Program-made: the position numbers and the translations under genes
Part shown: one piece after another, positions 2,711-38,172 of the stretch
How the letters are laid out: the number at the start of each line of letters is the position of its first letter
Position numbering within the stretch: the stretch's first letter is position 1
Notes under the pieces: model-generated
The model's input: only the letters and a program-made list of their open reading frames with translations
The model's database searches: none
Told to the model about the DNA's origin: nothing
Source of the DNA: Dysidea avara
Lineage: Eukaryota; Porifera; Demospongiae; Dictyoceratida; Dysideidae
Assembly (NCBI RefSeq): GCF_963678975.1
Contig: NC_089276.1
Span: 28,264,472-28,328,471 of the forward strand
Direction: 5' to 3'
Length of the DNA: 64,000 nt

Positions 2711-3496
2711 TCATACTGGTGTCCCGCTGGCTATTAGTTCATGACGGTTACAAGGAAGTGTAGCAAAATATATCTTCTGTTCTTCGGAGTATCTTTTTTC
2801 AACTTGTCCCTGTATCACATCTCTGTACGACCATTCTCTCCAGTGATGGTTAAACTCATCAAACAGCTTCAGTCTCATCTCATGGCTGGGAACACAGTCT
2901 ATTGGATACCTATGTTCCAACTGTGGAGCCAAAACTGTCCTAAATATAAGTGCACCTCTAAATGCAAACCACCCCCCATACTTTGGGTGCATGGAAACTC
3001 CATACATGGTATTGTCATTAATCCAAGGGTGTTCCCCTAAACACTCTCGCTGATAGTAATAAGCAGCTCCAGCAACATGGCCAGCTGTTTGTACTAGAAG
3101 TTTTGGCCTCCGTAATGCATCCATTTCATAATCCATTATTAAGTCCACTTGATGTGCAGGAAATTTCTTAACTAATCCAGTCAAATATTCTTTAATACAG
3201 TAGTCTAAGGGATCATTGTCTACCGACCATGATGGTTTACTAGCTGTGTATGGTTTGAAAAGAAGTTCAAACATATCCGGAGTGCTGATAAGTAATACGG
3301 CCAGCGTATCCGGAGGGTAAGAGAGTTTGAATACATCACTGTTAACTTGATCGTTATACCAGCCCACCTGTATATTAAATATTGTAGACGTCGTACACAA
3401 AACACAACTCCTTAAACGTACTAGAAACGGATACACCTCCAGACCTTTGTTAGTCACGAGAGCAGTTAGCTCCTCCGTCAAACTTTCCGCTGACAT
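2711..3496 (-). CDS. MMACHC: MMACHC (cobalamin trafficking protein CblC)
   Basis: Cytosolic vitamin B12 chaperone. In the family it removes the upper-axial ligand of cobalamins (reductive decyanation, glutathione-dependent dealkylation) and hands B12 to MMADHC. The match is strong: EVYPF, QTAGHVAGAAYYYQRE, HPKYGGWFAFRG, DCVPS, FNHHWREWSYRD and RYSEEQKIYFATLP follow the animal order. The model is complement(join(2711..3367,3422..3496)), 243 aa. The 54-nt segment 3368-3421 (GTACGT...ATACAG) has no stop, so the ORF reads through it, but removing it gives EVYPFLVGWYND, matching EVYPF.VAWYNE of vertebrate MMACHC. The protein ends soon after the conserved core and lacks the disordered C-terminal tail of the human protein. 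It is divergent from the LRRK1-like gene, with a short shared promoter. Confidence 0.93.
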   Translation of the reverse strand: MSAESLTEELTALVTNKGLEVYPFLVRLRSCVLCTTSTIFNIQVGWYNDQVNSDVFKLSYPPDTLAVLLISTPDMFELLFKPYTASKPSWSVDNDPLDYCIKEYLTGLVKKFPAHQVDLIMDYEMDALRRPKLLVQTAGHVAGAAYYYQRECLGEHPWINDNTMYGVSMHPKYGGWFAFRGALIFRTVLAPQLEHRYPIDCVPSHEMRLKLFDEFNHHWREWSYRDVIQGQVEKRYSEEQKIYFATLPCNRHELIASGTPV

Positions 3497-3670
3497 CTCC
3501 GTATATTAGCCAGTCTGTTAGCGCACGTGTCGTGCATTCAGAGAATTTTTTGCATACTCGTCTGTTTTTGGGCTGAAGATCGAGACTGTAGTGTGGTTCA
3601 CTGACTCGCTGACGCAGCACAAGGAGCTTCAGTGTAGAGAATGATCAGACACCATCTATCATCACTTTAA
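3497..3670. promoter_or_regulatory. divergent promoter between MMACHC and the LRRK1-like gene
   Basis: Only 174 bp separate the two putative start codons. The interval holds a CACGTG E-box near 3525 (in GCGCACGTGTCG) and is richer in CpG than its flanks. Sharing by the two genes is inferred from geometry and depends on exon 1 of the plus-strand gene being correct. Confidence 0.5.
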
Positions 3671-6600
3671 ATGTCTGGACAACGAGGAAACGTGAAGCGG
3701 TGAGTGTACGCTGTACCAAGTGGTAGAAACTTGTACGGACGAGACGTTAATGGCACTATCTGATAGTGCATGATAAATAATCTGGAAAGGGAAACCCTGT
3801 AACATTATCGCAGATCAAGTATTGACAAGTAGTTGCGTTCGGGGAAACTGAAATGGTATTCTTGGAATGTGCAATATATTTCATAAATGGCTCAGACCAC
3901 GAAGTGGTTGCCAGCTATTTGGAATTATATGAAGAGGGTGAAGTCGAGCATATCGTAGCTGTTCAAAGAGAAAACTGGCCAAACACCATTGATATGTGAG
4001 ACTGAGCCCTCTGAAATATAAATATATGTATATCAGCAATAGATTGTGCACATAAGTACGTGGAACAGGTAATACAATGTAAGGGATGTTAGAAGCTGGG
4101 TGGACTGACTCATGGGGGGCTTATAATATATCGATATGTTTGCTTGATAGGATCTAATGTCACCTCACCTGGAATTTCAACCTCAACAAACAGTCTGTGC
4201 ATTATGTGCCTATCAATGTAATGTCCGATTACCACAGGTATGGGCTGAAGGTCGGAGTTGGTGGGGAACGAATTGTTAAGTTTCCCCTAGGTAGTGGGGA
4301 TTTGTCAATGTCCAAGAAGCACACTGATGCAGCATTTCATGGATGCTGACTTACTATATGTCATCACTAAAACCTGCTTGAAGTAACTTGCAACTGGAAT
4401 AGCTACACTGTACACAATGGGCGATGGTGCAAAGCCCGATTAACCCCGGGCTTCTCTACTGGGAGATTTGTCAGGTTATGTGGGTGTTTGTATCACCAGT
4501 ACTTCCCCAGTAGGTGGGGAATTGTAATTTTCAGTGATACAAACCCCCACCTTCCCCCACCTCAGCCCATACCTGTGGTAGTCAGGGATTACATCAATAG
4601 GTGCATTATACCTGGTAACTTCGTGACTGATGTGTGTGGCTGTACACCTCAGCCTACATAGAAATCCTTGGAGTACACCTTTCTGATGTGTGCATAGTCT
4701 TGTTCTTGTGGTCTACATACTGAGGGTTGCTAGTGTGTAAGCCATGGTAACGATTTAGACAAGAAAGTGCTCTATAGCAACCACTTGGTAATTTCATACA
4801 TAAAGACTTTACTTAGTAATTAAAACAATTATGACTGTTAAAGTTGGGATCGCGGGGTTTGTACTTTCTCACAAATAAATATTGACCAGAAGCCAGCTTC
4901 ACAATACCTTCATGGCACCTTTGATTATTGGTTAGATATGTTCAAGCCCAAAAGTATCTTCAGATCAACCTGAAAAGCTTCCAGTGTGTTACTACGAAAT
5001 TAAAAAATATATTTAGTGAAATTTTCTGCTGACTGCTAACTATTGTAATCCTTCAGATAACGGTGACTCAATAATGGCTAAGGCTTGGTTCTTTCACTGT
5101 TAGACGTTGCTTCAGCCCAACAGGTGCCTTTTGGCATGCTGCAACTCTGTATGTACTGGGATCATTCATGTTTTCCATAGTAACTGGATTGATTGCAGAG
5201 ATGCTTATCACTCATTTGTAACACTAGCTGATCTTAACTGGAAACAAAGCATAATGGCCACTTCACAGTAATTGATGGTTGGGGAATACATATGAATAGC
5301 GCCTTCTTTGTTATGGTGCAGTATGTGTGGGTTCACCAATCATGCTGTAATTACATTATAAAAAAAGTTAACAAACAAGCTTAAATAAAATACTGCGGTG
5401 AAATACTTATCTCTTTTTGACTGTGCACATGTTATAGTGTAGCCTGTCCATTTGAAGGGGTGCATGCTCCATGATCATTACCATATTTACTTTGTTAAAT
5501 GTTACAAATAATGTCCTAATCTCAGGCCAGCACAAATTGTATCATACACTACTAGTAGGGACCACAAAGGAGTAGGCATGGCCCACAAAATAAAATCACC
5601 CAAAAAACAGCCTCAATTTTCCCTGACAACAATTGGGCAGTATTGGTTGGGTAAAATTAAGCCCAAACAAGCTTTCAGATCGACCTGAAACGCTTTCAAC
5701 AAGTTGCTACGGAAGTTTAAAAATAGTTTATTTAACGGAATTTTCTAATGACTAACTGACTGACTGACTGACTGACTACCTGATGCCTTCAGACAAGCGT
5801 AGCTCGATAATGGCTAAGGCTACGGGCTTGATTTTTCCACTATTCGACATCACTTCGGCCCGACTGGTGCCTTTTGGCATACCACAGTACATACAATGCA
5901 TTCTTCATGGGCTTACCAGTGTCCTCCTTTGTGTCCCATTCATCTTTGCTGACAGCAAAAAGTGTAGCACATTTTGCTGACAGCTAAAAGTGTAGCATTT
6001 GGTAGTAGCACGTTATGGCTTCCCTCCGTATCGGAAATCATCCGTAGTGGCTATTTTGATTGCAGGGGTGCTTTTTGAACAGTTCTTGATTTATACTGCT
6101 GTGTAACGGGTTGAACATAGCTAACTAAGAAGCGTAATCGATACTTCACTTTTCAGATGATAATTGACATAACTGGGATGCATGGCACCATTTGTTTTGG
6201 TATGCATGGATTGCAGATGTGGTTTTTGAACAGTTCTTGATCCGAAATGCTGTGTAATGGGTTGAACATAGCTGACAACGAAGCGTAATGGATACTTCAC
6301 TTTTCAGACAATAATTGATATAACTGGGGTGAGCGGCACCATTTCAGATGCAGGGTTCACCAATCATAATTAGTTACAAAAAAAGTTAACAAACAAATAC
6401 ACAGAAAAATTTGGAATTTTCAACTAGCAGTAAGGATATAACACTTCTTATTGTTTTACTGTGATTTAATATCGTGCACTACTCCAGCTTGTTTCAGTAC
6501 TTTTTATTGATGTGCTATGGTCCCTACTCTAGTTGAAAATTCCAAATTTTTCTGTGTACTTGTTACACTATTACACAACCAATGCTTTTATCACAATTAA

Positions 6601-9600
6601 GACTATATGTTGATAATAGCATGTAAGAATGATATTCATTAGGGTGGAATTTATAGCATAAAGTAGCTATGTAGCAATTGTATAGGTGTCCATCTCTCAT
6701 CAACGACATTTGGCTAATGCTCCTGCATGAAACAAATTTCACACCTATGTAATGCTGCCGACCATCATCGTGTAGCGTAATAATTTTTGAATGGTGTACG
6801 TAATTTTATGGCTTTTGCAATGACATGTATAGCCGATTACAACATTTTATGCTTGAAGTAGATTGCTACAGACAACCTCATTAATATGACAATCAAGGAC
6901 CAAAAAAGTAATCTACAGTAAATACAAGAGGCCATGAGGTAGCTAAGTTTTACATGGCCATTTTAGGAGGCAATCTTGTGACTAACTGTACAAAAGACCC
7001 ACATCTCTGTATTTTAAACCATTGAGATTGTATTTTTATGCAATCTGAATAGAAATAAGTTGGCTTCTTGGAATATAAAGATACATGTTCACCTTGCTAC
7101 TGATGGACAGGCAGAAGAACACACAACAAATGTACATGTATTCCTGGTAGCATCTCAATATGCTTGTTGTACAGAACACCTGCTGGTTGTACTGTTTACA
7201 CAATCAATAACACTCACTTGTTGTACTAGACCCTATAAACACAATGAAGTAATAAGGTTATGAAATACAATGCCACCATATTAACCATCAAAAGGATACC
7301 TTTGAAATGTGTACATTCACCTAAGCAATCAGATCAGGGAATGTATCCAACCAGAAATCACATTTATGAGTTTAGGTGTTCTAAAGGGACTGAGTGCTAT
7401 AGAGAAGTTTTGCCATAACGAGAAGGATGATCGGCCCATTGCAATGAAATACAGTTATGCAAAAAGGAGGAGCAAACCTGAAAGCCAGGTGAAGACCAGC
7501 TTTGGGGCTTGAACTGCAGTAAATAAAAACAGTTAGTTGAACTGTGAAACAAGTACAAAAGATCACAAGCATAATAAATCAAAGATGGCTATTAATAAAT
7601 GTACGATCCTCTATGTGTTGTTACATTGTAGTAGTACACATAGTTGTACAATTCCACAGGTTGCAGCACAAGCTGGTAGTATGTGGCAGTGCTGGTAGTG
7701 GTAAGAGGTCACTGAAGAACAACTGGTCAATGACCACATGGAGTACTGTAGTGGAGAAGATTGCAGATGTTGATATCATCACCTGTCAGGTACTACCTGT
7801 GTGTACGTGTGTACGTGTGTACTCCTTAAACGTAGTGTGTATCATACAGTATGTCATAGGGTTGGGAGGTATTTAGATATAGTTAAAAAGGTATTTTTCA
7901 GATACCGTTGTGGCTTTCTAAAAATACCGAATTTAATGTATTAATTAAAGTTTTGGTGGTTTAGTGGTGGCTACACATGAAGTCAAGCCCCACACAACCA
8001 TGTGTTTATGCTGTGGACAAGACAAACACAATACTTTACCTTTTGAGATATTCAAACCTTACTTTGTGGTACAATTGTCATTTCATTTGTTCCTTTAAAA
8101 GATAACTTTCACTACTAGCACAATGTGGGTATAAGTGTAAATCATAGCTTATCCAGGTTTTTAAAAAGTGTACAATATACAAGGTATTTTTAGTGATACC
8201 GAGGTATTTTTCCTAATACCGTACCGTTCTTCAAAAAAGCAATACTGCCCATCCCTACAGTATGATATTAGAAATTACGGTGGTTTGCACTTTCTCACAA
8301 AAAATAGCGACCTTTATAGCACCTTGGCAGTATTGGTGAGGTATATAAGCCCAAAAATGTCTTCAGTGCAATCTGAAATATTTTCTCAATATTGGAAGTT
8401 ATCTTGTATTTTGAAAATACATAAATAAATTTCATGGGAAGCTTTCCATCCCAATTCCAGGGTTATATACAGTAGATGTTGAGTACGTACCTTCAATTAT
8501 AGTGTCCAATGTAACACCATATGGTCTAGTAGAACATACATGCACACACAGACACAGATTGTATTTGCAGTGGTTGTATTAAAGTTATAAAGTATTATTA
8601 CACAGGAATTTTCTCTACGTGCAATCCAACAACCTTATGACTGTGTGAGCTTTGTTGTCATCTACCTGCCTGAAGACCAGGTAAGCTTGTGATGGGGTAC
8701 AGAAGACCTTTTGGGAAAATTTTCGTGTATTGGTTGTACAAAGTGGGAGATATTTGTACTGGCGTACCACATTTTAAAGAGATTGGGACCTTAATTGGGG
8801 TGCTGTGAGTGGGTGAGCTTTTTGTGGCTAAGGCTGTATGGCGCTGTGGCAGTTGGTCATGGGCCCAGCAGTCTCCCCCTTTACTGAGCCCTGTTTTCTC
8901 TCACTTGGTATCCACTAGTGTTATTAGTAGTTCTAGAAGATGGTACTGTTACAACCAGTAAACTGCTGGGATTTGGTGACAACACATTATATTCTTACAG
9001 TCATTGTTTAAAAATATTGTTTAAACAATGGAATTTTGACCCAGTGATTGTGACAAATGCATTGAGTAAATACGTGACTTGAGGGGGAAAATTTTCACAG
9101 ATAGCTAGCAATCTGCAAACATTTTTCTCCTCAAAAAACCCCACTATGTGGTATTTGTCTGCGTCTGTTTATTTTAGGAAAGTGTAGCGGCAGCTCAACA
9201 AGCACTAAGAGGTATTTATGAGTCTTTTGATAATGCCAGTGTCACCCTTGTGGAGAACAGACTTGGGGAGTACAAGTCACCATCCCTGCAACCAGAAAAG
9301 GTAAGCCACATCCACACAAACATGTGCACCAACATGTGCACCAACATGTGCACAGCATAAACCATTCCCACTGTTAGGTTCCAGTGTTGGTCCAGCTCAC
9401 TATTGATACAGAAGCCCCACCCATATTCTGGAGAGTGAGTGTTGCAGAGTGTATGCAGCTAACAGGAGTGTTTATCAGTTGTCTGGTGAAGCCAGTACTA
9501 GTGAATATTGGGACCAGTAGGAAGTGTGAGGTACAGTGTTATGTGTAGTAATGTATGTACAAATACGATAAATATTGAATAGTATAGCGGTGTATGGTTT

Positions 9601-12600
9601 TAAGCGTGTCTGTAAACAACTACTATAGCAAATAGGCTATAGTTACAGTTTGCAGTAGAATACTCACCAAAGTATCAATATACATGTAAAAATCGTTCAT
9701 GGTCAGTGCAGATATATGTAAAGTATGTACGTCTTTCCACATTCACATACACAATGTATTACATGTGTATACTTTCTTCTTTTTTAGTTGCTGTGTTGGG
9801 CTTGTAGTGAAGGCAAGTTGGATGTTCTCAAACTCCTTCTACCGTATATGGATAATGCTGATCCTGCCAATTATCTGTGCTGCATTGCTGCAAAACTGTC
9901 ATCCGCCAAGGTCAAGTCTGATCGTTCTATGATGTCCAAACTTTGTCTGATGGTGGATTACATCGCTAATTTTGGTGACAGAAGGAGAGTGCTAAAGAAA
10001 GTGGGGACATTGGTGGAGCAATATCCAGATGAGTGTTCAATCATGTTGAATATGATGGGGGAACAAGCTGATGATAAGCTGGTGTGCAGTAAGTTGAGTC
10101 TCACTCAGTTACCGGCATCGTGGATCTCACAGGATGATTACACTGTCATAGATATCTCCCACAACAGCTTACAAAAGGTGCCGATGGAATTATTCAAATT
10201 AGTGACCCTCAAGAAATTGAATGTGTCACACAATCATCTACAAACCATACCATCTCCTCTGCAGTGGAATTGTCCTAAGTTGCAGGACCTTTCGTTAGCC
10301 GCAAATGATTTGCGTAGTGAACGATGGCAGATTTTTATAACTTCTCCAGCAAGCAAGAGGAATTTGGCAACCAGTCATCCAGCTATCCCAACAATGTTGG
10401 CAAATTCTTTGATGAGAGTGAATATTAGCGGTAACTCAAAGTTAACACACCTTCCGGAGTGGTTATGTCTTTTATCATCACTCACTGTTCTGGACATGAG
10501 GGAATTACCCCAGGTACATTCCATCCCTCCACAATTATCACTAGTCCGGAACTTGTGTGTAATAAAACTCAGTCCTGGGTACATAACATCACCGCCTGCT
10601 TCTGAGGTTGCTTTAGGAACCTCAGCCATAATGACCTACCTGAGATGTCGCCATCGAGGGTCGCTGCAGTATCGTCACATCCGTGTTGTGTTACTAGGAG
10701 CACCGACCACTGGAAAGTTTACACTTTATTCGAATCTTGTCGGAGCAACTGATGTAGCCAAGTTGCATAAAACTTACATGAGTGTTGGCCGATATGAGTA
10801 CCCTCAGAAGAAACTGTTTAGTAATGACCCACGAGTTACTTTCCATGTGGTCTGCTTTACAGGATCTGAGAGTAGTCACCACTATATGTCACAATGTTTC
10901 TTCACTTACCGGTCTATTTTTGTGCTGCTTTGGAAAATCACTGATGGCAAGGAAGGATTAATGAGACTGCAACAACAGTTACACAACATTCATGCTCGTG
11001 TTCCAGGCTCTCCAGTAATACTAGTAGGAACACATGCTGACTTAAATAATGTTGTCAGTGTTACAACTGTGTCTGAATGGGAGGAAGAATTGTTTAGTTA
11101 TGTTCCTCAAGATTTAGCTGGTGCTCTAATCAGCAGCCCACTCCCACCCATCACCCATAGTATTGTAATGAATTGTAAGAGCAAGAGAGATGTTGAACAG
11201 CTACAAAATGTGTTGTACAAGATGGCATTGGATATGAGAAATCCTAAGACTAAAAAGTCAGTCATTAATGAGATGGTTCCTCGCAGCTACCTAGAGTTAC
11301 AGTCGCTGATACAGTCAGAGGTTAAGGCTATTCGTAGTTTGAAGGAAGCTCCTGTGAAGCGTCGCAGTCAGTTTATCAACTTTGTGAAGTCACACACTTT
11401 TCATAATACAGAACTTGAAGATGACGAAACAGAGATGGATGCTGCCTGCCGATTCTTACATGAAGCTGGTGTGATTGTACATTATGACATTGATGAAGTA
11501 CGTGACATCTACTTCCTGGATCCACAGTGGTTGTGTAATCTACTCTGCTCGCTCACCAATCCTCTAAACACCTCAGGCAGTATACTACGAGTTTCAGACG
11601 TTGCTAGTTTTTTAAATGAAGTTGGAGTTGCCAGCCTTCAACTACAACTACTTAAGATAATGGAAGTATTTAGTATTGCTGTTTGCCTTGACATGGACCG
11701 TGAGAGATTTCTGGTACCTTCCTTGCTGAGCAATAAGAGGCCACCCAACTATCCCTCATATGATTTGTGTGCCATAGACATCAATTGTAAACATTTTTGT
11801 TTTGGCTACTTGCCCAATGGTTTCTTTGCCAGACTCATGGCACAGACTCTTCTTCATATTAAACAGATGTCAGCTCAGCTTGTGGCGTGTACTACAGAGC
11901 ATAACTCAGCAGATCCCTTGCCTCTATTCGATGGGGAAGCTGCAGTAGCCATGCCAGAATTCGATGATCACCATGCGAAATACACTATCGATAGACGGAG
12001 TGGTTATTTGGTTCAAGATGACAGCTCTGCTGATGCAGAAGTGACTGGAAGTCATACTGAGCTAAAGAGGAAATTAATGACATTAGGGACTCTCCCCAGA
12101 TCACCTGCAAGGGATAGTAAGATCATTACATTGGCACGCCCCATGATGCAGCCATTGAAATCTGGTCATCACTCGTCGCACAGTGACTTGTTGCTAGGCT
12201 GGGTGTTCTGGCAAGAAGGAATGTACTTGTGTTTTCCTGGTCACACTCAGTTGTGGCTGGAGTCTACAGTGGAAGGTGTGGCTGTTGTGGTAACGGGTGA
12301 TCCAATACCACGTGTCAAAGTGTTGTCATACATCACCAATTGTGTGGATATGTTGTGCGAGGAACATTATTTGGGGTTAACCGTTTCTGTTGAGAATCCT
12401 TGTCCATCCTGTATAAAGAAATGTATCTCAGATACTGGGAACAAAGATCACACTGTGAATGGTTCCTTGCTAAATAGCTCAAAAACTCACTCCGATAATA
12501 CAAATGTTGAGCTTCAATCATCACAGGCTCAACCTACTGACACACAGGATGCTACTGATAGTTCACACAACGTTGCTAATAGCTCACATGATCCTTCAGA

Positions 12601-15600
12601 GACTTCTGAGCATGCAGAGAACTTTAACTATGCTCCACCAATGAGTCCAGCTAGTGGAGAAGTTACGTCTCCACTTTTAGAACTAGAATTTTCCTTCGAC
12701 TCGGTATCACAAAATGATAGTGTCCGTAAAAACTTGTTTGATTCTCCTAATGAAGATGACACAGAGTTTCTTTTTCCTTCAGTGAATGCCCCAGGGGATA
12801 AGGCATTGCCGAGGCTGGATCATGTGAGATCACATGTGAACATGTTTACCAACACCGAGTGTATCACAAAGGCATCAGCAGATCATGTGATCCTATGTGG
12901 ATCATGTGATCAAGAGGTGTTATTACGAAGTGTTGACCCATCAGTGTTACTGGAAGACTTCACCGATCACTTGTTGGTCGACCCTAACCAACTGCAGTTT
13001 GATGTGAATGGTGAGGAACTGGGCTCTGGGAGTTATGCTAAGGTATGTATATACGTATGTGTCATGCATCATCGTATATGTGCAGTAATGCTGTATAGTA
13101 GGGATCATGAAGGTTGGAGCTTTTTGGGAAAGCAAAAAAAATCACCCTAATACCTTATCTTGGCATCATCAAAATTGGCTCTAAAGGTATAGTCAAGCCC
13201 AACAATGTCTGCAGAGTAGGGTTGGGTGGTATTGAATTTTGTGACATGCGATTATTGCATGAGTCATTTAATGCGATTATTGTAATATTGCATGTGAAAA
13301 TTGAAACACAACCACACAGTTTGAAAAGTCCATATGACTGCTTGTTTTCACTGAGAATTAGTTTACAAACACAACTCCTTTGCTAACAAGTTAACTAATT
13401 GACATAGTTAGCAATAATATGCATGAACTGTATCAAATATGAGGTACAGAGGAGACAAAAATTAGATGATAAATGCGATAATTATTGCCTATGCGATAAT
13501 ATTGCGAAGGTAAAATACATGCGATAATGATATTGCGAGCACTTGCTTAGGTGATATTGGCGATTTATTGAAATATTGCCCAACGCTACTGCAGAGTAAT
13601 CCTAAACTCTTCTTACAACTCTCTCTGGCATTTAAAATAGTTTTCCATTTACTCACTGTTTAGCTATATAACTAATGTCTTCAGTCAAGTGTAACTGGTT
13701 AAGACTATGGGCTTGATTTCTTCGTTGTTCAATATTGTTTTGACCTGAGATGTGCCTTTTCGCTATCAGAATAGTCACTTTGCTTTTCAGTAATGAAGTG
13801 TTGGGGAACGTGTTTTGTCGCATCTCTTTAGTGGTTAGTGTTGCACCAATAACCAAAGTAGCCGATTATTCCGATAACCAATATTAAGCAACAGAATTAG
13901 CCGATACCAATAACCGATCTAATATACACTAATAACACTAACACTCATCCTCATCATTATTAAATGACTCATATTGGTGACATATCCATTGATATACAGC
14001 TCATTCGCTAAATTGTAAAGTTAGATATATACCACAAGTAAAAGTTACTCATGGTAAACAGGTTTTAAGTACTTTTTACTACTGCTATACAGTTGAGACA
14101 AGTGGCTGGTACTACATAGAAACCTAAACTCAGTTTACTATGGGCATGGCTTGTAGTCACTCACTGCTAAACCATCATCACATAACTTAATTAAAATGCC
14201 AAATAAATAACTTATGTCTAGCCTCCCCCACATCATTATACTACACAGCACAGTTAACATCGACTTTGATTTCATCAAAACTGATTAATCAGCTAGTAGC
14301 CAATATCGGCAGTTTTAGGTGCTTCTTGTACTGTTCATCATTTGTAATGTCGTTTAATGGGTGGAACGTAGCTGAAAACGAAGCGGTATGGCCACATTGC
14401 TTTCCATTATTTAATAGTCAGGGCATGTGTTTAATTGCTTGGTTGATTTTTATAATCTGTCTGGCTACTGCCATTCTCGATGCAGTTTATGCATTGGTGT
14501 ACTAGTCATAAATCATATTACCAAACAAGTGTGAAGAAGAATTTGAAATTTTACATTTGAGTAAGGATCACAGAAAGAAAAAAAAGCATTGAAACAAGGG
14601 AGGTCATCTACACCTGCAGCTATACTAGTGAATGTTTAAGTCGTACTTCAGTCATGGCTATACCCTGTCTGAAGTAAGGGTTTAATTTCCAGATGTTTGC
14701 CTATGCATGATTGCAGTATAGCGGACACGCATCAGTCGATCATGTCATTTAGTACTGCTGCTATGCATTTATAGGATTAGAAAGATAAAACTTAAGAAGG
14801 ATAAATGCAAGAAAACCTGTGACTAGCACCGAAGCTTCGAATGTTCATTTTATTAGCAAATGTTCGAAGGTGAATTTCAATATTCGTCCCAGCCCTATCT
14901 ACAACCATGACTGAATTCTAGTATATCTGCAGGTATAGGCAACCTTCCTTGTTTCACAACTTTTTGTTGTTCCCTTGTTTCACCAAAAATGTCTTCAGAC
15001 CAACCTCAAACCTCAAACCCTTCCAAAGACTTTCTATGGAATTTCAAAAAAGAATTTTATAATGTTTGATTACCTAACTGATCATATGCCTTAACTTCTT
15101 CACTGTTCGACATTGTTTCATCCTGAGATGTGCCTTTTCACCAACCACAGTACATACAATACATGCATCATGGACTTGCCTTTGTCCTCCCTTTGTTTGT
15201 TTTGCTGACAACTCAAGGTGTCAATTTGTTATAGCGTGATGTGGCTTCCCTATGGCTATGAGTATTTGTTGGTTATTATGCTTATCACACATATTTTCCA
15301 TAACAACTGGATTGAATGCAGAGACGCTTCTCGTACTGTTCTTCATTTGTAACACTGTGTAGCAGGCTAAGCATAGCTGAAAACAAAGTGTAATGGTCAC
15401 CTCCCTTTCTTGGTTGTTGGGGCATGCGTTCTGACGCAAAGTTACTGTTATGGCATTTCTGCACCATACTTTCTTATAATGCAGTGTGCACTGTTTCATT
15501 TGTCATAATTGTGTTATAAAAAGGTAAAAAAACAAGTAAAAGGAAAAATTTGGGATTTTAAGTTGGATTAGGGATCAAAGAAAAAAGTAGAGTGCCATTA

Positions 15601-18600
15601 AATGCTGCCAAGCTGTCATGAAGGGAAATTCAGACTGGTTTTAGGGTGATTTTTTTTTGGCTGGAAAAGCTCAGTTCTTCATGATCCCTAATATACAGCT
15701 GCAATTACTATGTCCTTATACAGTATGTAATAGTTATACCATGGCTGTGAGGGATTTTGCTGATATATACATATTATACACCCAAAGCCCGAGGGCTGCG
15801 GGTGTATATGTCAGCAAAATCCCATGTAGCCATGGTACAAGTGATATATATCACTTGGGACGCACTTGCCTAATAGGTGAAAGAACTAACGAGAACTCAT
15901 CCCATTTGTTTTATACAGTAGCATCTGAAGACCGATTGTGGTTTTAATAGCGTGGGCTAATAGCCATCAAAACGTTGTCCATACGTTAAAACATTATTAA
16001 TACGTTACTATGCTTCAACATGCAATGTTAGAAAACTTGCGATTGTGGGATGGAGTTTATTATTGTTATCATTTTTGTACTAAGTTAAGCCAACTAACTT
16101 CGCTATTGGGACAGTAAGTAAGTTATTATATTAAGTTAAGTACTTAGGACTGTAAGTTGCTAACCTATTTCAATGTAGCAGTAGTAGCTTTGCTGTTCTG
16201 TGGTTTGTTCAAAGGCTGATACATGGTGGGTAGAAATACGCTTCCACAATTGCCCAAACAATTATTTTGTGTCTTCATTATCCTTTAGTAACAACCAACT
16301 AGTCTATCTTAGCAAATGTACTAAGCTTAGCAACCACTACAAAAACGAATCCCCCAATACAAAGCTTTATGTTACTCAATATAACGAGTCAAAGCGCATC
16401 AATTCTTTGAACTGGCTGGGTATCAAAGTCATTGGCAAACCGCTTTCCCATGATATTGCCTGGGCAATATGCAAGTTAAACACCGAGCGGTGTCTTTGAA
16501 CGCCCACGCTAAGGTGGTATATACACTGTATAGTTGCTATTACTTTTAAAGTGATACAATACACAGATTTAGTACATAGCATGTATTGAATGGTATTGAT
16601 GTTGTATTGTTACAGTATGTTGACAATGCATGTAGTCTACCACAGCCTGCTTTCAATTTATTTCACACATGAATTTTGCAAACTTTATGTTATACTATTC
16701 CACAGATATGTACAGTCCAGTCTTAGGCTCAGTTGTTTTACACATAAACTTTTTAGTAGCTGAAAGTTTAGTCATTGCACAAGCATAGTATGTACACAAC
16801 ATGTATTGTGTAGTTTGTACTGTTCTTCAGTAAACTGTTGTGTTGGCAGGTATGTAAAGCACTGTATGGTGGGGTCGATGTGGCCATGAAAGTGTTCAAT
16901 GGTCGCAACAAACAGAACATGATTTTGGAACAATCATACAAAGATCTTCGGAGCGAGTTATCCATTGCAAGCCAACTACATCATCCAAGGATCTCCATGG
17001 TGATGGGTGTGTGTCTGAACCCACTTGGAATAATGCAGGAGTTGGCTCCTCTCGGGTCATTACGACAACACATTGCTAAGTGTCCATTTGGCATGACATC
17101 AGATGTCGTACATGCCATTGTTCAACAAGTGAGGGTATATGTGTGAAAACTTTTATATAATGTTCTACCATTTTGGGAGCTCAATCTAGAATATTAAGTT
17201 GGGGTTGGAGGTTGGGTTGGTTTTAGTGGTTCTATAGAATTCTGACAGAGGATCATTATAAGTGTGCAAAGTACACTCAAAACGCAAGGCATGATATTTT
17301 TTACTAGGGGGTCTGGAGGCATGCCCCCAAGAAAATTTTGAAAAATTGGGTCCTGACACACGATTTTAATGATAGAATTTTTGTGGTGTCACTGAATATT
17401 GTCCATTTGATTATACAACTTTAGGAAAGAATATCAATTAAACCTATTCATTTCTAAGTATGAGTAAAGGCTTTAGGTGGATAAACCTAATGCAGGAGTT
17501 AGCTCCTCTCAGGTCATTATGACAACACATTGCTAAGTGTTCATTTGGTATGACATCATATGTTGTAATTACATTATATGTATGTAAACTTTTATGTACT
17601 ATTATCAAACTTGGAAGTTTTCGTGCAAGTGATATTGTTCTTTGCATATTTGTTAGCTACACTGTTCACAATAAATATAAAGCTTTCTATCTTTGGAGAA
17701 CAGACATATAGACTTTGTTAGTTATGCCAGAATCGTTGCGTTCTTGACACATTTCCTATTACATTTTATTAGAGGTGCACTGATATGGAAATTTATCAAT
17801 ATTAGCTACAATATTACCGATACCAATATTTTTTTAGTGTTGGGTTACATCTAGGTTTCAGTATGGACACTACAATAAATAGCTAATGTGGTGATTGCCA
17901 AAACGTTTCTGTAAAAGATGTGATGAGAAGATCTGAGCAAAGAAAAAACTAAAAGCAGCTTTACTTGGGAATTGAACCCTTGGTAAAACAGGTAGCATCT
18001 TTTGTCTTACGTTTTATTGTGATACCGGTAATGATGCCGATAGTTATATCGGTGCACTTCTACATTTTATAGTCACAGTACATAGCTATTATGCTGCAAA
18101 ACGGTAGCTTATTATTTAAACATCAATGTGATATAGATTGCTTTTAGCTCTGAATGCTCATAAACAATCAAGATTGTTCTATTAGAATGTGCAGTAGAGT
18201 TGGAATGACTGTTCTATTAGAGTATCTATCTTTTGTTCATGAAATATACTGACTTCAGATATTATTTACCCTTCTCAAACTGCTGGAATAGTTTTAGTAC
18301 TAGAATTATGCTCAGATTTATTCTACTACAGCCATACAAATAAAATTATTGAGCACTTCAAATTATTTAGATCCCATAGTCCCAAGATGACTATTGGATC
18401 ACTACAGTACTATTCCATGTACTACAACCTTAATACTAGTGTACTGTATACAGAAATTAAATTGAAATTATTATTGTTGTTCCCCCAGATAGCAGATGGA
18501 CTACACTACCTCCACTCATTGTTCATCATCCATCGTGACATCAAGCCAGGAAATGTGCTTGTGTGGTCCCTGTCTTCTCAAGATGGGGTGGATGTGCGTC

Positions 18601-18753
18601 TGACAGACTATGGTGTGTCACAGTTCTCGTCACCTTTAGGGTTACGTAGTGTGAAGGGCACAGAAGAGTACATGGCACCAGAATTGTGTAAATATGGAGA
18701 ACAATCGTGTTATGATGAAAAGGTATGTACGTATGTAGTATATATGAAGTAAG

Positions 18754-18784
<31 letters not shown>

Positions 18785-20387
18785 GAGATTCATGTATTTT
18801 TTTTAAATTAGATTAGCTTTCTACGTATCTTATTTCCAGGTGGACATTTTCTCTCTGGGTCTGGTGATCCATGAGCTGGTTACAGGCCGTCATTTATTCT
18901 CTCAGATGATACACAAACATGATCAGTTACATCGTCTCTACCATACTCCTCCACCACAGCTAAGCCATGCCCTTGAACAATCACTCAGCAGTACTGAACT
19001 ACTAGCATCTCTTCCACGTAAGACACACCCAGGAGCACGTTACCCAAATCAACCAATCAATACTTGTCATTCTAATTGTTTCCAGCGTCTCATGGAGGCA
19101 TGTTTGTCCCGTTCACCTAACCAGCGACCTTCTGCGAAGGCCATTAGCACTATGTTGGGAGTTTGTCCAGCATCTTTACCACAACAAAGCTTTTTTATTG
19201 GATCAACCGTCACAGGGGCATGTCTGGGATTGTGCAAGAGTGGTGACATGATAATAGGGTATTCCCCACACAAATGGGAACTACTTGTCATAATCCCAGG
19301 AGTCTGGAACTACATGCATCATCCGATCCTTCATCCGGAGGACTCTATCACTGCTGCTACATGTGCAAATGGAGAGGTGTGGTTAGCAACCAAAAAGTCT
19401 CACATGATCTACAGTTTGACATTGCCAGATGTTGAGGAGGGTCACATGAGCTGGTCTAAACTTGCTGAACAGCCAGTGTTTATGATGACGTACGAAATCA
19501 ACGAGAACACTGCCATATTGATAGGACTGACTGAAGGAGTGGCAGCAATTTATGATGATTTTACTCTACGACACATGTTAGATCGGAATGCTAAGTTTGT
19601 TGACGTGGCTGTAGATATTGAGGGGTGTGCTCCAGTGGCTTGTGGGTGTTACCATAGCAACTATTTGTGGTTGGGCTGTGGATGTCACCTAGTTGCCATA
19701 AATCCAACCACTTATGGAGTGACACAGACATATCTGCTCAGTGAACATTCATGTCTTACTAAAGTTGTGTCTACTGCAAATAAGATTTGGGTCACCCTGA
19801 AAGATTCTTCCAAACTCATTGTGTGTCATTTAGATGACAAAGAAAAGTTATATATGAGGTACGATGTTGTTATATAATTCGTGTACATGATATTATGCAT
19901 TTAACCTTACTTACATGAAGGCCAAGAGTAGAGGTGGGAGAGTCTTTATTGCATACTCCTGCTAAGACTGTATACCTACTTCATTATTGTTGCCAGGTCC
20001 CAAATATAACTATATGCATATGTTGTTAATGATGCTATGCTTTTGGTGTCCAATTGTGAGTTTGTTGGATTTCCCAATAGGTCATTACATTTGATACCTA
20101 ATGGAATTCCCCATGATAAGACCAGCATTGTTGCCATGGCAGCAGCCAGGGATGTGTTGTGGGTGGGAACAAATGGAGGATACTTGTTTGGCTTCAATGC
20201 CAGGTCATGTGATCTCCTTGTGATGAGGCAACAACATTCAGCAATTGAGGACATTGTGTTACTAAGCAACCCTCGACAGCTGGTGACCTTTGGCAAGTCA
20301 AACTTGCTAGGAGTAAATGATGAAACTAATGGGTCATTTATTGTGTGGGAGATGTATGCCCAGCCAGAGAATAATAGCAAATTATGA
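3671..20387 (+). CDS. LRRK1: LRRK1-like ROCO protein kinase (ANK/LRR-Roc-COR-kinase-WD40)
   Basis: Model: join(3671..3699, 7660..7789, 8606..8680, 9178..9300, 9378..9530, 9788..13042, 16850..17128, 18489..18722, 18840..19858, 20081..20387), 1867 aa; all borders are GT/AG and in phase. Domains: N-terminal region with GSAGSGKR (about 17-24); ankyrin-like (about 171-260); leucine-rich repeats (about 275-450); Roc with GAPTTGKF at 474-481 and G4-like VGTHAD; COR (FLHEAGV, FLDPQWL); Ser/Thr-rich linker; kinase with GSGSYAKV, VAMK (Lys about 1269), HRDIKPGN (about 1363) and DYG (about 1388); WD40-like C-terminus. VWSL...DYG...YDEKVDIFSLGLVIHELVTG and the C-terminal ILIGLTEGVAAIYDD resemble LRRK1 more than LRRK2. 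Roc lacks the G1 Ser/Thr and the G3 Asp. The kinase motifs are intact, so it is probably an active Ser/Thr kinase. Exons from 9788 onward are well supported; 7660-9530 fit by phase; the first exon (29 nt, 4 kb upstream) is uncertain. Confidence 0.88.
3853..3995 (+). other. possible alternative first exon of the LRRK1-like gene
   Basis: An ATG at 3853 opens 47 codons (MVFLECAIYF..., then acidic VASYLELYEEGEVEHI) ending at a GTGAGA donor at 3996. Two bases remain, so splicing to the acceptor before 7660 would be in phase, as for the proposed exon at 3671-3699. It reads like real coding sequence, but I recognise no family. It may be an alternative first exon, an exon of another transcript, or chance. 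Confidence 0.3.
4186..4620. repeat. foldback element (long inverted repeat)
   Basis: The sequence around 4195-4285 (TGCATTATGTGCCTATCAA, then ACCACAGGTATGGGCTGA, then GGTGGGGAA) recurs in inverted form at about 4535-4615. The spacer also contains GTGGGGA-type inverted pairs. This is typical of a non-autonomous foldback or MITE-like element inside intron 1 of the LRRK1-like gene. Confidence 0.65.
4845..5400 (+). repeat. interspersed repeat family A, copy 1
   Basis: This is one copy of a family of roughly 0.6-0.8 kb. Landmarks in order: TTTGTACTTTCTCACAAA, AAGCCCAAAA, CAGATCAACCTGAAA, CTTCAGA...AATGGCTAAGGC, GGTGCCTTTTGGCAT, ATGTACTGG, and an end with AAAAAAGTTAACAAACAAG. Copies diverge but keep these blocks in the same order. 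No protein-coding potential was recognised, so it is probably non-autonomous. Confidence 0.7.
5550..6565 (+). repeat. interspersed repeat family A, copy 2 (longest)
   Basis: Contains the family A blocks plus a TGAC-type tandem run near 5753-5778 and an internal duplication: the stretch with GAACAGTTCTTGAT and GGGTTGAACATAGCTGAC occurs at about 6070 and again near 6225. Its distal end is an inverted pair: CACAGAAAAATTTGGAATTT at 6402-6421 against its complement at about 6538-6557, around a 115-bp loop. This copy defines the family best. Confidence 0.7.
7857..8257. mobile_element. hAT-like non-autonomous element (MITE)
   Basis: The ends are TAGGGTTGGGAGGTATTTAG and, in reverse complement, TAGGGATGGGCAGTATTGC. 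This is the same terminal style as the element at 13217-13588. The flanks hold a CAGTATGT/CAGTATGA pair, but on the left two extra bases separate it from the element, so the 8-bp duplication is imperfect. It lies in the intron 7790-8605 of the LRRK1-like gene. No transposase is encoded. Confidence 0.55.
8270..8460 (+). repeat. interspersed repeat family A, 5' fragment
   Basis: Shares GGTTTGCACTTTCTCACAAA, a CACCTTGGCAGTATTGGT...AAGCCCAAAA block and the CTTCAGTGCAATCTGAAA block with the longer copies. It stops before the later landmarks. It sits directly beside the hAT-like MITE, which may have inserted into it. Confidence 0.55.
13135..13880 (+). repeat. interspersed repeat family A copy, split by nested insertions
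   Basis: Family A blocks are present on both sides of a nested hAT-like MITE (13217-13588): AGTCAAGCCCAACAATGTC before it, and ACTAATGTCTTCAGTCAAGT, GGGCTTGATTTCTTC and GATGTGCCTTTTCG after it. A second insertion, about 13.84-14.32 kb, separates the last part (GTACTGTTCATCATTTGTAA...GTAGCTGAAAACGAAGC). Everything lies in the 3.8-kb intron that splits the kinase glycine loop from the VAMK exon. Confidence 0.6.
13217..13588. mobile_element. hAT-like MITE with 8-bp target-site duplication
   Basis: A 372-bp element begins TAGGGTTGGGTGGTATTGAA and ends with the imperfect inverted complement (TAGCGTTGGGCAATATTTCA read inward). It is flanked on both sides by the exact 8-mer CTGCAGAG (13209-13216 and 13589-13596). 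An 8-bp duplication with TAG-type short termini is characteristic of the hAT superfamily. The interior is AT-rich with GCGATAAT-type repeats and no ORF. Confidence 0.8.
13836..14325. mobile_element. possible hAT-like insertion inside repeat family A
   Basis: It interrupts a family A copy between ...CGCATCTCTTTAGTGG and GCTTCTTGTACTG. It starts TTGCACCAATAACC with CCGATAACC motifs and ends with CCAATATCGGCAGTTTTAGG. The termini resemble the GTGCAC.GATAT hAT-like element at 17.8 kb, but I could not fix exact ends or a target duplication. Confidence 0.35.
14930..15570 (+). repeat. interspersed repeat family A, copy near 15 kb
   Basis: Landmarks: TGTCTTCAGACCAACCTCAA, TTCGACATTGTTTCA, GATGTGCCTTTTC, CACAGTACATACAAT, ACTGTTCTTCATTTGTAACA, GCATAGCTGAAAACAAAG, and the AAAAAGGTAAAAAAACAAG end followed by AAAAATTTGGGATTTTAAGT. 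It is about as diverged from the 5.5-6.5 kb copy as that copy is from the others. Confidence 0.65.
15739..15835. repeat. palindromic hairpin element
   Basis: The arms CCATGGCTGTGAGGGATTTT... and ...AAAATCCCATGTAGCCATGG pair across a loop that itself holds CCCGAGGGCTGCGGG. It is about 97 bp and nearly a full palindrome. The GC-rich loop resembles that of the hairpin at 30.4 kb (CCCGGGCCTTCGGG). It lies in an intron of the LRRK1-like gene. Confidence 0.75.
17770..18062. mobile_element. hAT-like MITE, 8-bp target-site duplication CATTTTAT
   Basis: A 293-bp element starts TAGAGGTGCACTGATAT and ends with the inverted complement of TAGAAGTGCACCGATAT. It is flanked by exact CATTTTAT copies (17762-17769 and 18063-18070). 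Only two mismatches separate the 17-bp termini. The interior has no ORF. It sits in intron 17129-18488 of the LRRK1-like gene. Confidence 0.85.
18753..18777. repeat. (GT)n microsatellite in a short intron
   Basis: About 12 GT units lie within the 117-nt intron 18723-18839 of the LRRK1-like kinase domain, so length changes here would alter a large share of the intron. Confidence 0.9.
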
Positions 20388-24352: not shown

Positions 24353-27300
24353 ATGGAAAAGGACATGAATCATGAAGGACTAAACCAGTTTAAAACACCT
24401 GAGAAGGGTAAGTATACTATTATCATAAGCTTAGTGTGGCATTCGGAGTCCGCTTTATACAACAGCTTCCAGTACTCCACTACTGAAGGATCTTCATAAC
24501 CACACCAGTTCAAATTATGCTGCTCGTTGGAAAGTGATCGGATCATTACTGGGTCTACCCAAAAGAAGACTTGACATCATAGAGTATGACAACCACCACA
24601 AAGCTGAGCCTTGTTGTAATGCTGTGTTGGAGGAGTGGCTTGAAATCGACCCCTTCGCTAGTTGGGAAAAACTGTTGAAAGTGATTGAGTCACCTACAGT
24701 GCTCATGGCCAGTGAGCAAATTCCTGAAAAAGGTGACTAGCATGTTATACATTTGTGTGCATGATAATTTACTACAGTATATGTGTTAGTCTCGTGTAGC
24801 CAGATCCTTTTCTTTCTTTTGTGTGGGGGTGGGAAAAGAAAAGAACATTGTATAACATCTTCGTTGGCCTATCCTGAGACTGTGGGGATTCTACTGCACA
24901 GCTTCCAGATTGTTTGTGGGTGTGAATGATGTGTTTTGCTAATCATTACGTCATTTGCATTCTGTTACCATAGATATAAAAGCAGTAGCTATGGTAATAG
25001 GATGCAAAGATCAGCAGATCACTTTTTCAAGAATTTATTTATTAAGGCTTTACAGCAAAGGTGCTGCAGGTCTGTAGGACACCTGGTCCTATGGAAACAG
25101 AATGCAAATGACACAACGATTAGCAAAACACATCATTTTCACCATAATCTGGAAGCTACGCATGAGCAGTAGAATCCCCACAATCTCGGGATAGGCCAAC
25201 AACGATGCTATACTGTGTTCACCAGACCCTTTTCTTTCCCTGCCCCCACACAAAAGAAACAAAAGGATCTGGCTACGTGAGATCATATAATTATGTGTAG
25301 CTGTTGGTATTAACAAGCTTTTGTGTATGTGCAGTGTCTTTGAAACCTGATGTGGATAAGTCAGTGGATAGTGACCAAGGTAGAGTGGACACATTATATT
25401 TTGTGCTTCATTTTATGTGTTGTTATTCATTGCTGTAGGAATCTCCACATTGTCAAACAGGGCGAAACAATTTAGTACACAAACACGGTTTGCTATTGAT
25501 GAAGATATTTGGCCACCACATCAACCGAAAGACTTTATACCAGTTTTACTAATTCAACATCAAGGCCAACACACTTTTAAACAGGCAACTGTACTTCAAT
25601 TGGCTGAATCAGTCCAATTAGGTGGTGTTCATCCCAAGCTTTACCCAAAGGACACCCATCAATCACTGAGAGAAGTACTCAACAACAGTAAGATTACTAA
25701 ACAGCTAGGTGATATCTTAGCTCCTCTACAAGAGAGTGACAATGCACATCTAATTTTAATTGATGGTTTGCCTGGCATTGGGAAGTCTTTATTATTGCAA
25801 GAAATTGCTTACAATTGGACAATAGAAAAGTTCTTACAAAAGTTCAAATTAGTTCTCCTTATACAGCTGCGTAGTCCAGCCGTGCAGCAGGTGTCGCTGG
25901 TTGATGATCTTCTTACCTTGTTCTGCAAAAGAGACAGGAAAGGTACAGAAATTGCCATTGCATCTAGTGATTACCTATATAAGAATGGTGGTAAAGATGT
26001 TGTTTTTCTTTTTGATGGCTATGACGAATTCCCAGTTAACCTACAAAAGGATAGTTTAATTGCCGATATACTGAAACGTCATGTGCTACCTCATTGTGGC
26101 TTGGTAGTGTCATCTCGCCACATGCCTCAGTGAGACTCCGAGAACAAGCAACCATCAGAGTTGATATCTTGGGCTTTGCTGAAGAAGAACGAAAGCTGTA
26201 CATTGAACACTGCCTAAAGGGACAATCACATGCAATTGACGAGCTTACCAAATATCTTCAATGTAATCTGACTATCAACGGCCTGTGTTTCATCCCCTTC
26301 GATATGGTTGTCTTGACTTACCTGTACAAACAGGGAATTCCCCTTCCCAGTAATTTTACACAGCTCTACAACTACTTCATCTGTCTTACCATCCGTCGAC
26401 ATCTTGCCAAGTGTAGGCAACCTCTTGATAACACCATTACTGATCTAACCAACTTTCCAGAGCCCTGTAACATAATAGTTCGGCAATTATCAAAACTATC
26501 ATTCCAGAGTCTTAATAGCAACAAGCTAATCTTTACCTTGGAGGAGATCAGAGCAGCTTGTCCAGGCATTGAAGGTATTGAAGGAGCTCTCAATGGCTTT
26601 GGACTGCTGCAGGCCATTCAACACTTTGGGCTCACTGGGAAAACCATGACTTTTAATTTTGTCCATTTTTCTATTCAGGAGTTCTTAGCTGCTTACCATA
26701 TTTCTCAGCTTCCACCTGACGAAGAGCTGCGAGTACTTGAAGCAAAGTTCTGGAGTGATATTCATTCTAAAATGTTTACAATGTACACCTCACTTACTAA
26801 AGGGCAGAGATTTGCTTTTAAACAATTTCTCTCTGGCAGAGATAACATGATTGCCATTTCTGAATTATTCTTGGAGAATCAACTAAAGTGTCTTCGACTT
26901 TTCCACTGCTTCCTTGAAGCCAATGATGAAGCTTTTTATGCTTGCATTCAAAATGGAAAAACTTTTAATGATAAAGTAATCGACTTATACAACACTAGCC
27001 TAACAGTTTATGATGTTGAATGTGTTACACTCTTCCTTACATTCTCACCTCACAAATATTGGAAGATGATTGACTTGTCATACTGCCATATCCAAGATCG
27101 TGGCCTTCATGTCCTTCACCGTGATTTAATGAATAGTGGTATCACTATTAAACAACTCAATTTGTCCTATAATGGCCTCACGAGATCATCTTCCTCCTCC
27201 ATCAGTGATCTCGCTGTTCACTGTAGAGTGGAATGGTTGGGTATTAGTGGTAACCGCACCATCGGAGAGGACCCTGCTCTGTATGACATGTTGTCCCACC

Positions 27301-27692
27301 CCTCCTCTGTGTTAGCTGGACTGGACATGAGATGGACCAGCTTATCATCACCATCAGCAACAATTGTCCTTTTCACTGCACTAGTAAAGAGAAACAAACT
27401 GCAGGGTCTCAACATTAACAATAATTCCATCACTGATGAAGCTTGTGATGTGATAGCTGCTTCACTGAAAAACAATATCTCTCTTGTCAGGCTGGAGGTG
27501 TATCGCAACAAGATGATCAGTTCAGAAGCTGCTTGTCGTCTTGTACAAGCCCTACAACATAGCGACACATTAGAACTGCTATGGCTACCCCGTTACACTG
27601 AAGATATTGAAAAGAGGATTGGATCACTGCAAGAAGAAGTCAACAAGAAAAGAGAGAGTAGAGGATGTCAAACAAAGCTGAATATTTACTGA
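24353..27692 (+). CDS. NLR-type receptor: Death-NACHT-LRR, with one frameshift
   Basis: Model: 24353..24407, 24466..24732, 25335..25379, 25439..27692; all introns are phase 1. With one missing base allowed for, it would be about 873 aa. Residues 19-107 form a Death-like fold (LLKDLHNHTSSNYAARW...LGLPKRRLDIIE...CCNAVLEEWL...WEKLLKVIE). NACHT: Walker A GLPGIGKS (231-238) and Walker B FLFDGYDEF (about 312-320), then winged-helix sequence and FNFVHFSIQEFLAAYHIS. C-terminal LRRs include LNLSYNGLT, GLDMRWTSL and LNINNNSITDEA. The frame breaks at 26117/26118: VSSR ends one frame, and PHASVRLREQATIRVDILGF, expected directly after it, is in another. One base is missing, through sequence error or a true mutation. 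Animal NLRs with this layout sense microbial or stress signals in the cytosol. The start may be further upstream. Confidence 0.85.
24791..25281. mobile_element. foldback MITE in NLR intron 2, with nested RT 3' end
   Basis: Long inverted arms: CTCGTGTAGCCAGATCC at the left pairs with GGATCTGGCTACGTGAG at the right. Pairing continues through TTTGTGTGGGGG, GTTGGCCTATC, TGGGGATTCTACTGC and AAAACACATCATT, about 180 bp per arm. The centre carries ATTAAGGCTTTACAGC...CTGTAGGACACCTGGTCC, which recurs inverted at 60.4 kb. No transposase is encoded. Confidence 0.75.
25030..25092 (-). repeat. retroelement 3'-end fragment shared with 60.4 kb
   Basis: The plus strand reads TTTATTTATTAAGGCTTTAC...CTGTAGGACACCTGGTCCTA. 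The reverse complement (AGGACCAGGTGTCCTACAG...GTAAAGCCTTAATAAATAAA) appears at 60374-60440. The (TAAA)n tail suggests the 3' end of a CR1/L2-like non-LTR element. Confidence 0.55.
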
Positions 27693-33692: not shown

Positions 33693-33698
33693 GTGTAT

Positions 33699-34244
33699 AT
33701 GGCGAATTACTTCGGCAGAATATGGCGAGGTGCCATGCTGTTCGCTGGATCAGGCGCTACCTTAGCCATGGTCGCGATGAGTTACGATGACGACAGGGGA
33801 GCTGAAAATGCCAACAACTTGCGCGCATCAACACAGTGGGACGATAACTGGGACCGGCGCGCGCCACCTCCTGATGCGGCTGATAGTACAGACGGTGACA
33901 AGCCCACCAAAGCCACTGCCAGTCGTCATCTTATACTGATACGCCATGGACAGTATGATCATAGATATGATTTGGCCCACAAACCAGATGAACTGAGGGT
34001 ATTAACACAATTGGGACACCAACAGGCAACCATCACTGGCAAGAGACTAAAAGAACTCCAGGCTGCAACAGGCAGTGGCTACAATGCCCTTATACATTCC
34101 TCATTGAAGAGAGCTATAGAGACAACTATTGACATAATACCATCACTAGAAGTGGTACCACCTGTGTCCAGTTGTGATCTGTTGATAGAGGGGTTACCAT
34201 GTAAACCAGATCCAGGGCAACCAGTATCATGGAAAAACAGACAT
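33699..34244 (+). CDS. PGAM5: PGAM5 first exon, copy A (partial duplicate or alternative exon)
   Basis: Encodes 182 residues parallel to exon 1 of the complete gene: N-terminal membrane segment ([29 protein letters not shown]), the WDDNWDRR multimerisation-type motif (family WDPNWD), the phosphohistidine loop [21 protein letters not shown], and the VSSCDLLIEG block. It ends WKNRH at a GTTAGT donor in phase 0, the same phase as copy B. The second catalytic block (CHANVIRY) is not encoded nearby; the only exons for it are at 40.6 and 45.7 kb, downstream of copy B. Unspliced, the frame would add about 50 unrelated residues and stop at 34394. It is either an alternative first exon sharing exons 2-3 (276 aa) or a truncated tandem duplicate. 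No stop or frameshift interrupts it, which suggests selection or recent origin. Confidence 0.8.
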
Positions 34245-38166: not shown

Positions 38167-38172
38167 GTCTAC

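Follow-up and report, generated by a model that had tools for sequence, protein, structure and literature searches.

Four short exons (A to D, forward strand) at 7660-9530 of the window, that is, of the whole 64,000-nucleotide stretch of Dysidea avara DNA that was analysed, may encode the N-terminal domain of an LRRK1-like kinase gene that derives from a Ras/Rab-type small GTPase and has lost its switching parts. We place the probability of this reading at about one-half. Judged from the sequence, exons A to D are real coding sequence and most likely the start of a 10-exon LRRK1-like gene, and GTPase ancestry of exons A to C is likely. If true, an LRRK1-like gene that starts with a decayed small GTPase would be a new layout for LRRK, the family of a Parkinson's disease protein. 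LRRK proteins have ankyrin and armadillo repeats at their N-terminus and further Roco proteins have other regulatory domains; the available text of the two papers describing these layouts names no second G domain (PMC10643122; PMC6337361). No report of an LRRK with a second G domain was found among the matches listed in the open-licence literature, which is no proof of absence.

The LRRK1-like gene model

Exon E (9788-13042, forward strand, as are all exons of the model) has a weakly ankyrin-like start followed by LRR, a degenerate Roc, COR-A, COR-B and the start of the kinase. In Pfam, LRR_8 (2.6e-11), COR-A (2.7e-16) and COR-B (7.5e-08) were all over cut-off, the Roc reached 26.3 bits, slightly below its cut-off of 27, and the ankyrin match at the exon start had an E value of 0.055 in one search and 0.3 in another. 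The top match of this exon among PDB sequences was LRRK1 (6.1e-57), with LRRK2 at 2.3e-36; long COR-B and WD40 loops are given as marks of the LRRK1 clade in the available text of PMC10643122. The kinase (Pkinase 8.3e-43) is located after COR and extends through the exons at 16850-17128, with the VAMK lysine, and 18489-18722, with HRDIKPGN and TDYG. These catalytic residues are kept, and the kinase looks intact from its sequence. The end of the kinase and a beta-propeller (Beta-prop_LRRK2 29.8 bits, over the cut-off of 26.9) are encoded at 18840-19858, and the last exon (20081-20387), whose phase fits, supplies the C-terminus and the single stop in the spliced frame. Spliced, the 10 exons give 1,867 residues.

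Twenty more Roco loci resembling exon E (L024-L043, on C6, C8, C9, C10, C11, C12 and C13) were found in the genome, with 23-31% identity over the best match, and most of them have a very long open frame. A kinase match was present in four of the five loci scanned, the exception being L039, which by eye has an ankyrin exon upstream. At L041 and L043, the Roc match was below cut-off or absent.

Ahead of exon E, the four in-phase exons described in an earlier note are indeed open, have GT-AG borders and are separated from each other and from exon E by introns (A/B, B/C, C/D and D/E) that are all of phase 0. They lie at 7660 (or 7667)-7789 (A), 8606-8680 (B), 9178-9300 (C) and 9378-9530 (D). The peptides quoted in that note were found in them, and their length is 158 residues when counted from 7667, against the approximately 165 given there. 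The candidate first coding exon (3671-3699) begins with ATG, encodes MSGQRGNVK and the first two bases of an Arg codon finished by exon A, and ends at the donor GCG|GTGAGT; it is in phase with exon A when the latter is read from 7660. Seven first-exon candidates share this donor score, and of these it is in our opinion the best placed, lying in CpG-rich surroundings beside a divergent MMACHC gene. The CpG observed/expected ratio is 0.98 at 3401-3720 against a window median of 0.34, and 4.6% of 300-base windows reach 0.9 or more. The MMACHC gene (2711-3505, reverse strand, 1.4e-81) is arranged head to head with the LRRK1-like gene across the CpG-rich stretch, and some 175 bases would separate the two start codons, provided that the first exon is correct.

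Two other neighbours on the forward strand were noted downstream. An NLR-like gene at 25384-27692, intron-bearing or frame-shifted, has a NACHT domain and LRR in two overlapping frames, and two similar histidine-phosphatase copies, presumably PGAM5-like, stand in tandem at 33693-34394 and 38167-38757.

The coding character of exons A to D was assessed against phase-0 AG..GT stretches of similar length from six non-coding parts of the window, read on both strands. Open stretches with an equal or better codon score made up 2 of 1640 for exon A (from 7667), 10 of 1700 for B, 1 of 1640 for C and 6 of 1537 for D, under a codon model in which L026 and L030 overlap, so that one gene is counted twice. 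A scan of introns A/B, B/C and D/E revealed no extra phase-0 exon of 24-300 nt with a codon score of at least 1. A missing switch I exon inside intron A/B had been considered, and the scan gave no candidate for it.

Likeness of exons A to D to small GTPases

Exon A encodes a beta1/P-loop-like stretch, KLVVCGSAGSGKRSL, in which Arg replaces Ser/Thr, then a switch I region that is shortened, and ends in TCQ. Exon B contains the switch II/alpha2-like EFSLRAIQQPY and the beta4-like DCVSFVVIYLPEDQ, and exon C the alpha3-like ESVAAAQQALRGIYESF and the beta5/G4-like ASVTLVENRLGE. Exon D occupies the expected place of beta6 and alpha5 and is coding, without recognisable GTPase character. The consensus motifs themselves are altered. 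The P-loop-like motif with Arg after Lys, as described earlier, is present as GSAGSGKR and so departs from the G1 pattern GxxxxGK[ST]; IITCQE aligns with G3 (DxxG) and has no G3 Asp, and ENRLGE aligns with G4 ([NT]KxD). The protein is shortened between alpha1 and beta3. In our reading of the alignment, TCQ|EFSLR across the A/B border stands in the G3/switch II place. The earlier note had placed G4 in exon D (VPVLVQLTIDTE), where the profile instead assigns beta5/G4 to exon C, and it had seen a G5-like motif in exon D, which scores nothing in the profile and segment tests.

Searches of Pfam, NCBIfam and PDB sequences with A-D gave no GTPase match at E<=10. For the main profile, 16 GTPase sequences from this genome were combined. 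With it, A-D plus short flanks scored 7.6 bits, which was reached by none of 1000 shuffles (best 5.7) and by none of 542 real stretches taken outside Roc from LRRK-like proteins and other proteins of the window, the highest of these stretches having 5.1; these control stretches overlap, and 458 of the original 1000 (near Roc domains, or of WIN_E, L026, L027, L041 and L043) had been removed before counting. The degenerate Roc of L043 scored 7.2 bits with the same profile. The match of A-D consists of two pieces in the correct order, the P-loop and then beta4-alpha3-beta5. Without the P-loop, B-C scored 6.9 bits and B-D 5.4 bits (0 of 1000 shuffles in each case), and everything after the P-loop 5.1 bits (3 of 1000). 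Addition of one sequence to the profile brought A-D down to 6.2 bits (1 of 1000 shuffles) and B-D to 3.3 bits (2 of 1000).

A profile alignment by hhalign placed residues 14-108 on the G1-G4 stretch of the 16-GTPase profile with a probability of 65% and an E value of 6e-5, a score reached by none of 300 shuffles and none of 200 real stretches. Most of this score is supplied by the P-loop: after shuffling of everything but the P-loop, 24 of 200 sequences still reached the real score, and with the P-loop left out the score of A-D was reached by 2 of 200 shuffles. An earlier profile of three Rabs aligned 18 columns only, at the P-loop, with a probability of 9% and a score reached by none of 200 shuffles. 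None of the Rab, Ras, Arf and Rho profiles stands out as the subfamily of A-D; their scores were reached by 6, 6, 13 and 45 of 1000 shuffles, respectively, and for B-D by 60 (Rab), 14 (Ras) and 55 (Arf), with no score for Rho. Whole-length pairwise tests were mostly near chance, the best being the Roc of L039 (7 of 1000 shuffles) and Rab9 (20 of 1000). In sum, each single test supports a GTPase weakly, and the support varies with the profile and the aligner.

The exons were also compared one by one with what we take to be the human RAB1A sequence, which was picked after the Rab1 exon pattern had been seen and was cut at the A-D exon borders, both of which could flatter the result. In global alignment to its own segment, exon A (carrying ten residues from the candidate first exon) was equalled by 2 of 5000 shuffles, exon B (residues 71-96) by 3 and exon C (97-140) by 8; exons B and C also match the profile, and exon D was at chance level. 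Exons B and C fitted their own segments with z scores of 4.0 and 3.9 and other segments with at most 1.2, and among real decoys z>=3 was reached by 1 of 200 for B, 6 of 200 for C and none of 200 for both. Exon A also fitted the wrong segment, that of C, with z 3.2, and without its first ten residues it scored z 2.6 against RAB1A. Across 17 GTPases, z was positive for A in 16, B in 15 and C in 16, with medians of 2.1, 2.0 and 1.9, against a median of 0.2 for D. These counts are not independent, since the templates are related to each other, and the cut points were transferred by pairwise alignment, with at least one (L054) misplaced by eye.

Intron positions offer a further comparison. Intron A/B, of phase 0, interrupts the protein directly behind the position equivalent to Gln-61 (CQ|EF). 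At the same codon, a phase-0 intron also occurs in a GTPase gene of a cluster on C4 (DTAGL|ERH); here, two pieces 3 kb apart (L058 and L059) were taken as consecutive exons of one gene, and this is the one place where the phase was read. The cluster itself (C4:42.40-42.87 Mb) is made up of Rab-like GTPase exons; the exon pair read has Leu at the Gln-61 place, and other exons of the cluster have match borders at the same switch II place. In the RAB1A search, the exon match ends at residue 96 in three genes at C12:24337-24371 kb, and four Rab1-like genes at C10:8559-8622 kb have a border at about 96-99; three of these four have another at about 140-141, through which the fourth reads. The 96/97 border corresponds approximately to DQ|ES (B/C) and the 140/141 border to where exon C stops (C/D), with match coordinates as the evidence for both. 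The Rab1-like genes lack the A/B border, theirs sitting a few codons earlier, and the intron matches therefore come from different GTPases. Rab subfamilies keep their own intron positions, which have served to classify strongly diverged Rabs, according to the available text of PMC3504004. By this measure, a mixture of matches counts for less than agreement with a single gene throughout. Overall, the GTPase-like stretch that the earlier note had put before ANK/LRR/Roc finds support for exons A, B and C, which match GTPase pieces in order and whose introns fit partly, but not for exon D.

Other explanations for the N-terminal exons

The rival that survives best, although we consider it rather unlikely, is that A-D belong to the LRRK1-like gene as real exons without being GTPase-derived, and are instead a diverged N-terminus or a fragment of another P-loop NTPase, with a chance likeness to Ras in exons B and C. 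NACHT/STAND ATPases, too, commonly read GSAGSGK. This explanation would suit the failure of curated GTPase families to match A-D, the dominance of the P-loop in the hhalign score and the unrecognised exon D; further, the first residues of exon E look weakly like an ankyrin repeat, the kind of repeat that human LRRK1 carries at this place. It sits poorly, however, with the specific fit of exons B and C to their own GTPase segments, with the absence of decoys that reach z>=3 for both and with intron positions that fit GTPase genes in part.

It is improbable that A-D form a separate upstream gene, a small GTPase-like protein of about 175 residues ending at a TAG after 9530, with the LRRK gene beginning downstream. 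The length would suit a small GTPase, read-through of exon D reaches the TAG after VQCYV, and the stretch 9531-9787 has a CpG observed/expected ratio of 0.79, from five CpG only. However, the first ATG of exon E comes no earlier than codon 21, the donor of exon D is in phase with exon E, and the read-through end has, by eye, none of CaaX, CC or CxC. No AATAAA or ATTAAA occurs in 9530-9790, although none occurs within 313 bases past the end of the full gene either. The D/E junction is of phase 0 and exon E opens directly at its acceptor, inside the weakly ankyrin-like repeat; on these grounds, the joining of A-D to exon E appears to be the best and simplest model.

It is hardly credible that A-D are a CENP-M orthologue or a CENP-M-type pseudo-GTPase fused to LRRK. 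The identity was raised by the seemingly alike short alpha1-beta4 spacing of A-D. According to the available text of PMC4080450, CENP-M, a pseudo-GTPase of metazoans, no longer has the switch I region; its distant members retain the P-loop, and the relatives identified include one protein from the sponge Amphimedon. Neither the PF11111 search, in which A-D gave no match, nor alignment with human CENP-M, which did no better than chance (under four settings, between 305 and 637 of 1000 shuffles reached the score), supported it, and the Leu described as invariant at the Gln-61 place in CENP-M (PMC4080450, in the same text) corresponds in our alignment to the Gln at the A/B border, which speaks against this identity. 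Across the genome, PF11111 matched once, over a 17-bit piece of a stretch that looks repetitive and non-coding. Human CENP-M scores -0.3 bits with the GTPase profile, and hence that profile would not reveal CENP-M kinship.

Equally improbable is a second copy of the Roc domain: the P-loop Lys is followed by Ser/Thr neither in A-D nor in the gene's own Roc, and the best pairwise score of A-D was with a Roc, but the genome's Roc profile gave A-D 1.7 bits (31 of 1000 shuffles) and B-D a score reached by 216 of 1000, and the exon structure is unlike, as Roc sits within one long exon.

Relatives of A-D were sought more widely. When the genome was queried with A-D plus the beginning of exon E, all five of the matches obtained at E<=10 lay within the gene itself, and no relatives were found in viral contigs or prokaryote genomes, where in prokaryotes none were expected. 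In 2.3-4.6 kb upstream of the 20 Roco loci, tblastn of A-D gave nothing better than E 1.8; a distant exon could escape such short stretches. A genome-wide P-loop DNA pattern was uninformative (8,240 matches against 8,172 for the control).

Possible origin and working, and comparison with known systems

If A-D do descend from a small GTPase, the most plausible course is that a small-GTPase gene contributed exons with phase-0 introns at their edges, which came to lie before an LRRK1-type gene, where they would have replaced its first ankyrin repeats. Binding of nucleotide by A-D would then be unlikely, because Ser/Thr is missing behind the P-loop Lys and Asp from G3, NKxD is replaced by NRLG, and the switch I region is short. 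Its likeliest working would be that of a nucleotide-independent binding or regulatory module, like other pseudo-GTPases, which would place the kinase or hold it inactive. CENP-M, for example, is described in the available text of PMC4080450 as acting in complex assembly without GTP binding.

The gene's own Roc (10680-11240) has GAPTTGKF as its P-loop and CFTGS at G3, and is thus also without the P-loop Ser/Thr and the G3 Asp, unlike the Roc domains of its paralogues, where GK[ST] is kept in 12 of 13 distinct starts read. For this reason, nucleotide control looks weakened in this LRRK1-like protein, which may be an LRRK kinase with two decayed G domains.

Rabs are substrates of LRRK kinases, and LRRK1 phosphorylates Rab7A on Ser72 in switch II, according to the available text of PMC7886321. 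As LRRK kinases act on this part of Rabs, a Rab-derived pseudo-GTPase held in cis in place of the first ankyrin repeats could be a tethered mimic of Rab, a pseudo-substrate or docking piece that would do the work of a free Rab in a protein with a decayed Roc, an idea that we regard as doubtful. The place corresponding to the LRRK target in A-D is either Ser (of EFSLR) or Ala, depending on the alignment, and that part of the idea is therefore speculation. A natural fusion of a Rab-like remnant with an LRRK1-type kinase, if true, would be an evolutionary record of the Rab-LRRK partnership and a ready-made construct for studying how Rab engages LRRK.

In comparison with Rab and Ras, A-D have in common the order of P-loop, switch II-like stretch, beta4, alpha3 and beta5/G4-like stretch, and in part the introns; they differ in lacking the P-loop Ser/Thr and the G3 Asp, in the unrecognised exon D and in being part of a large protein. 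With LRRK1, which is the top PDB match, the gene has in common the order LRR, Roc, COR-A, COR-B, kinase and propeller, and by eye the start of exon E resembles one of the ankyrin repeats of human LRRK1. In contrast to LRRK1, the model has no recognisable N-terminal ankyrin array and has a GTPase-like stretch there, and its Roc P-loop and G3 are degenerate. In AGAP proteins, with whose pseudo-GTPase domain the earlier note compared A-D, a GTPase-like domain stands N-terminally in a longer protein that also contains ankyrin repeats. CENP-M is, like A-D, a GTPase remnant in which switch I is lost (PMC4080450, available text), whereas it is a stand-alone protein with Leu at the Gln-61 place and has no measurable sequence match to A-D. 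Similarly, the pseudo-GTPase domains of p190RhoGAP, as described in the available text of PMC5593906, are embedded in a large signalling protein, and A-D are likened to them by that description.
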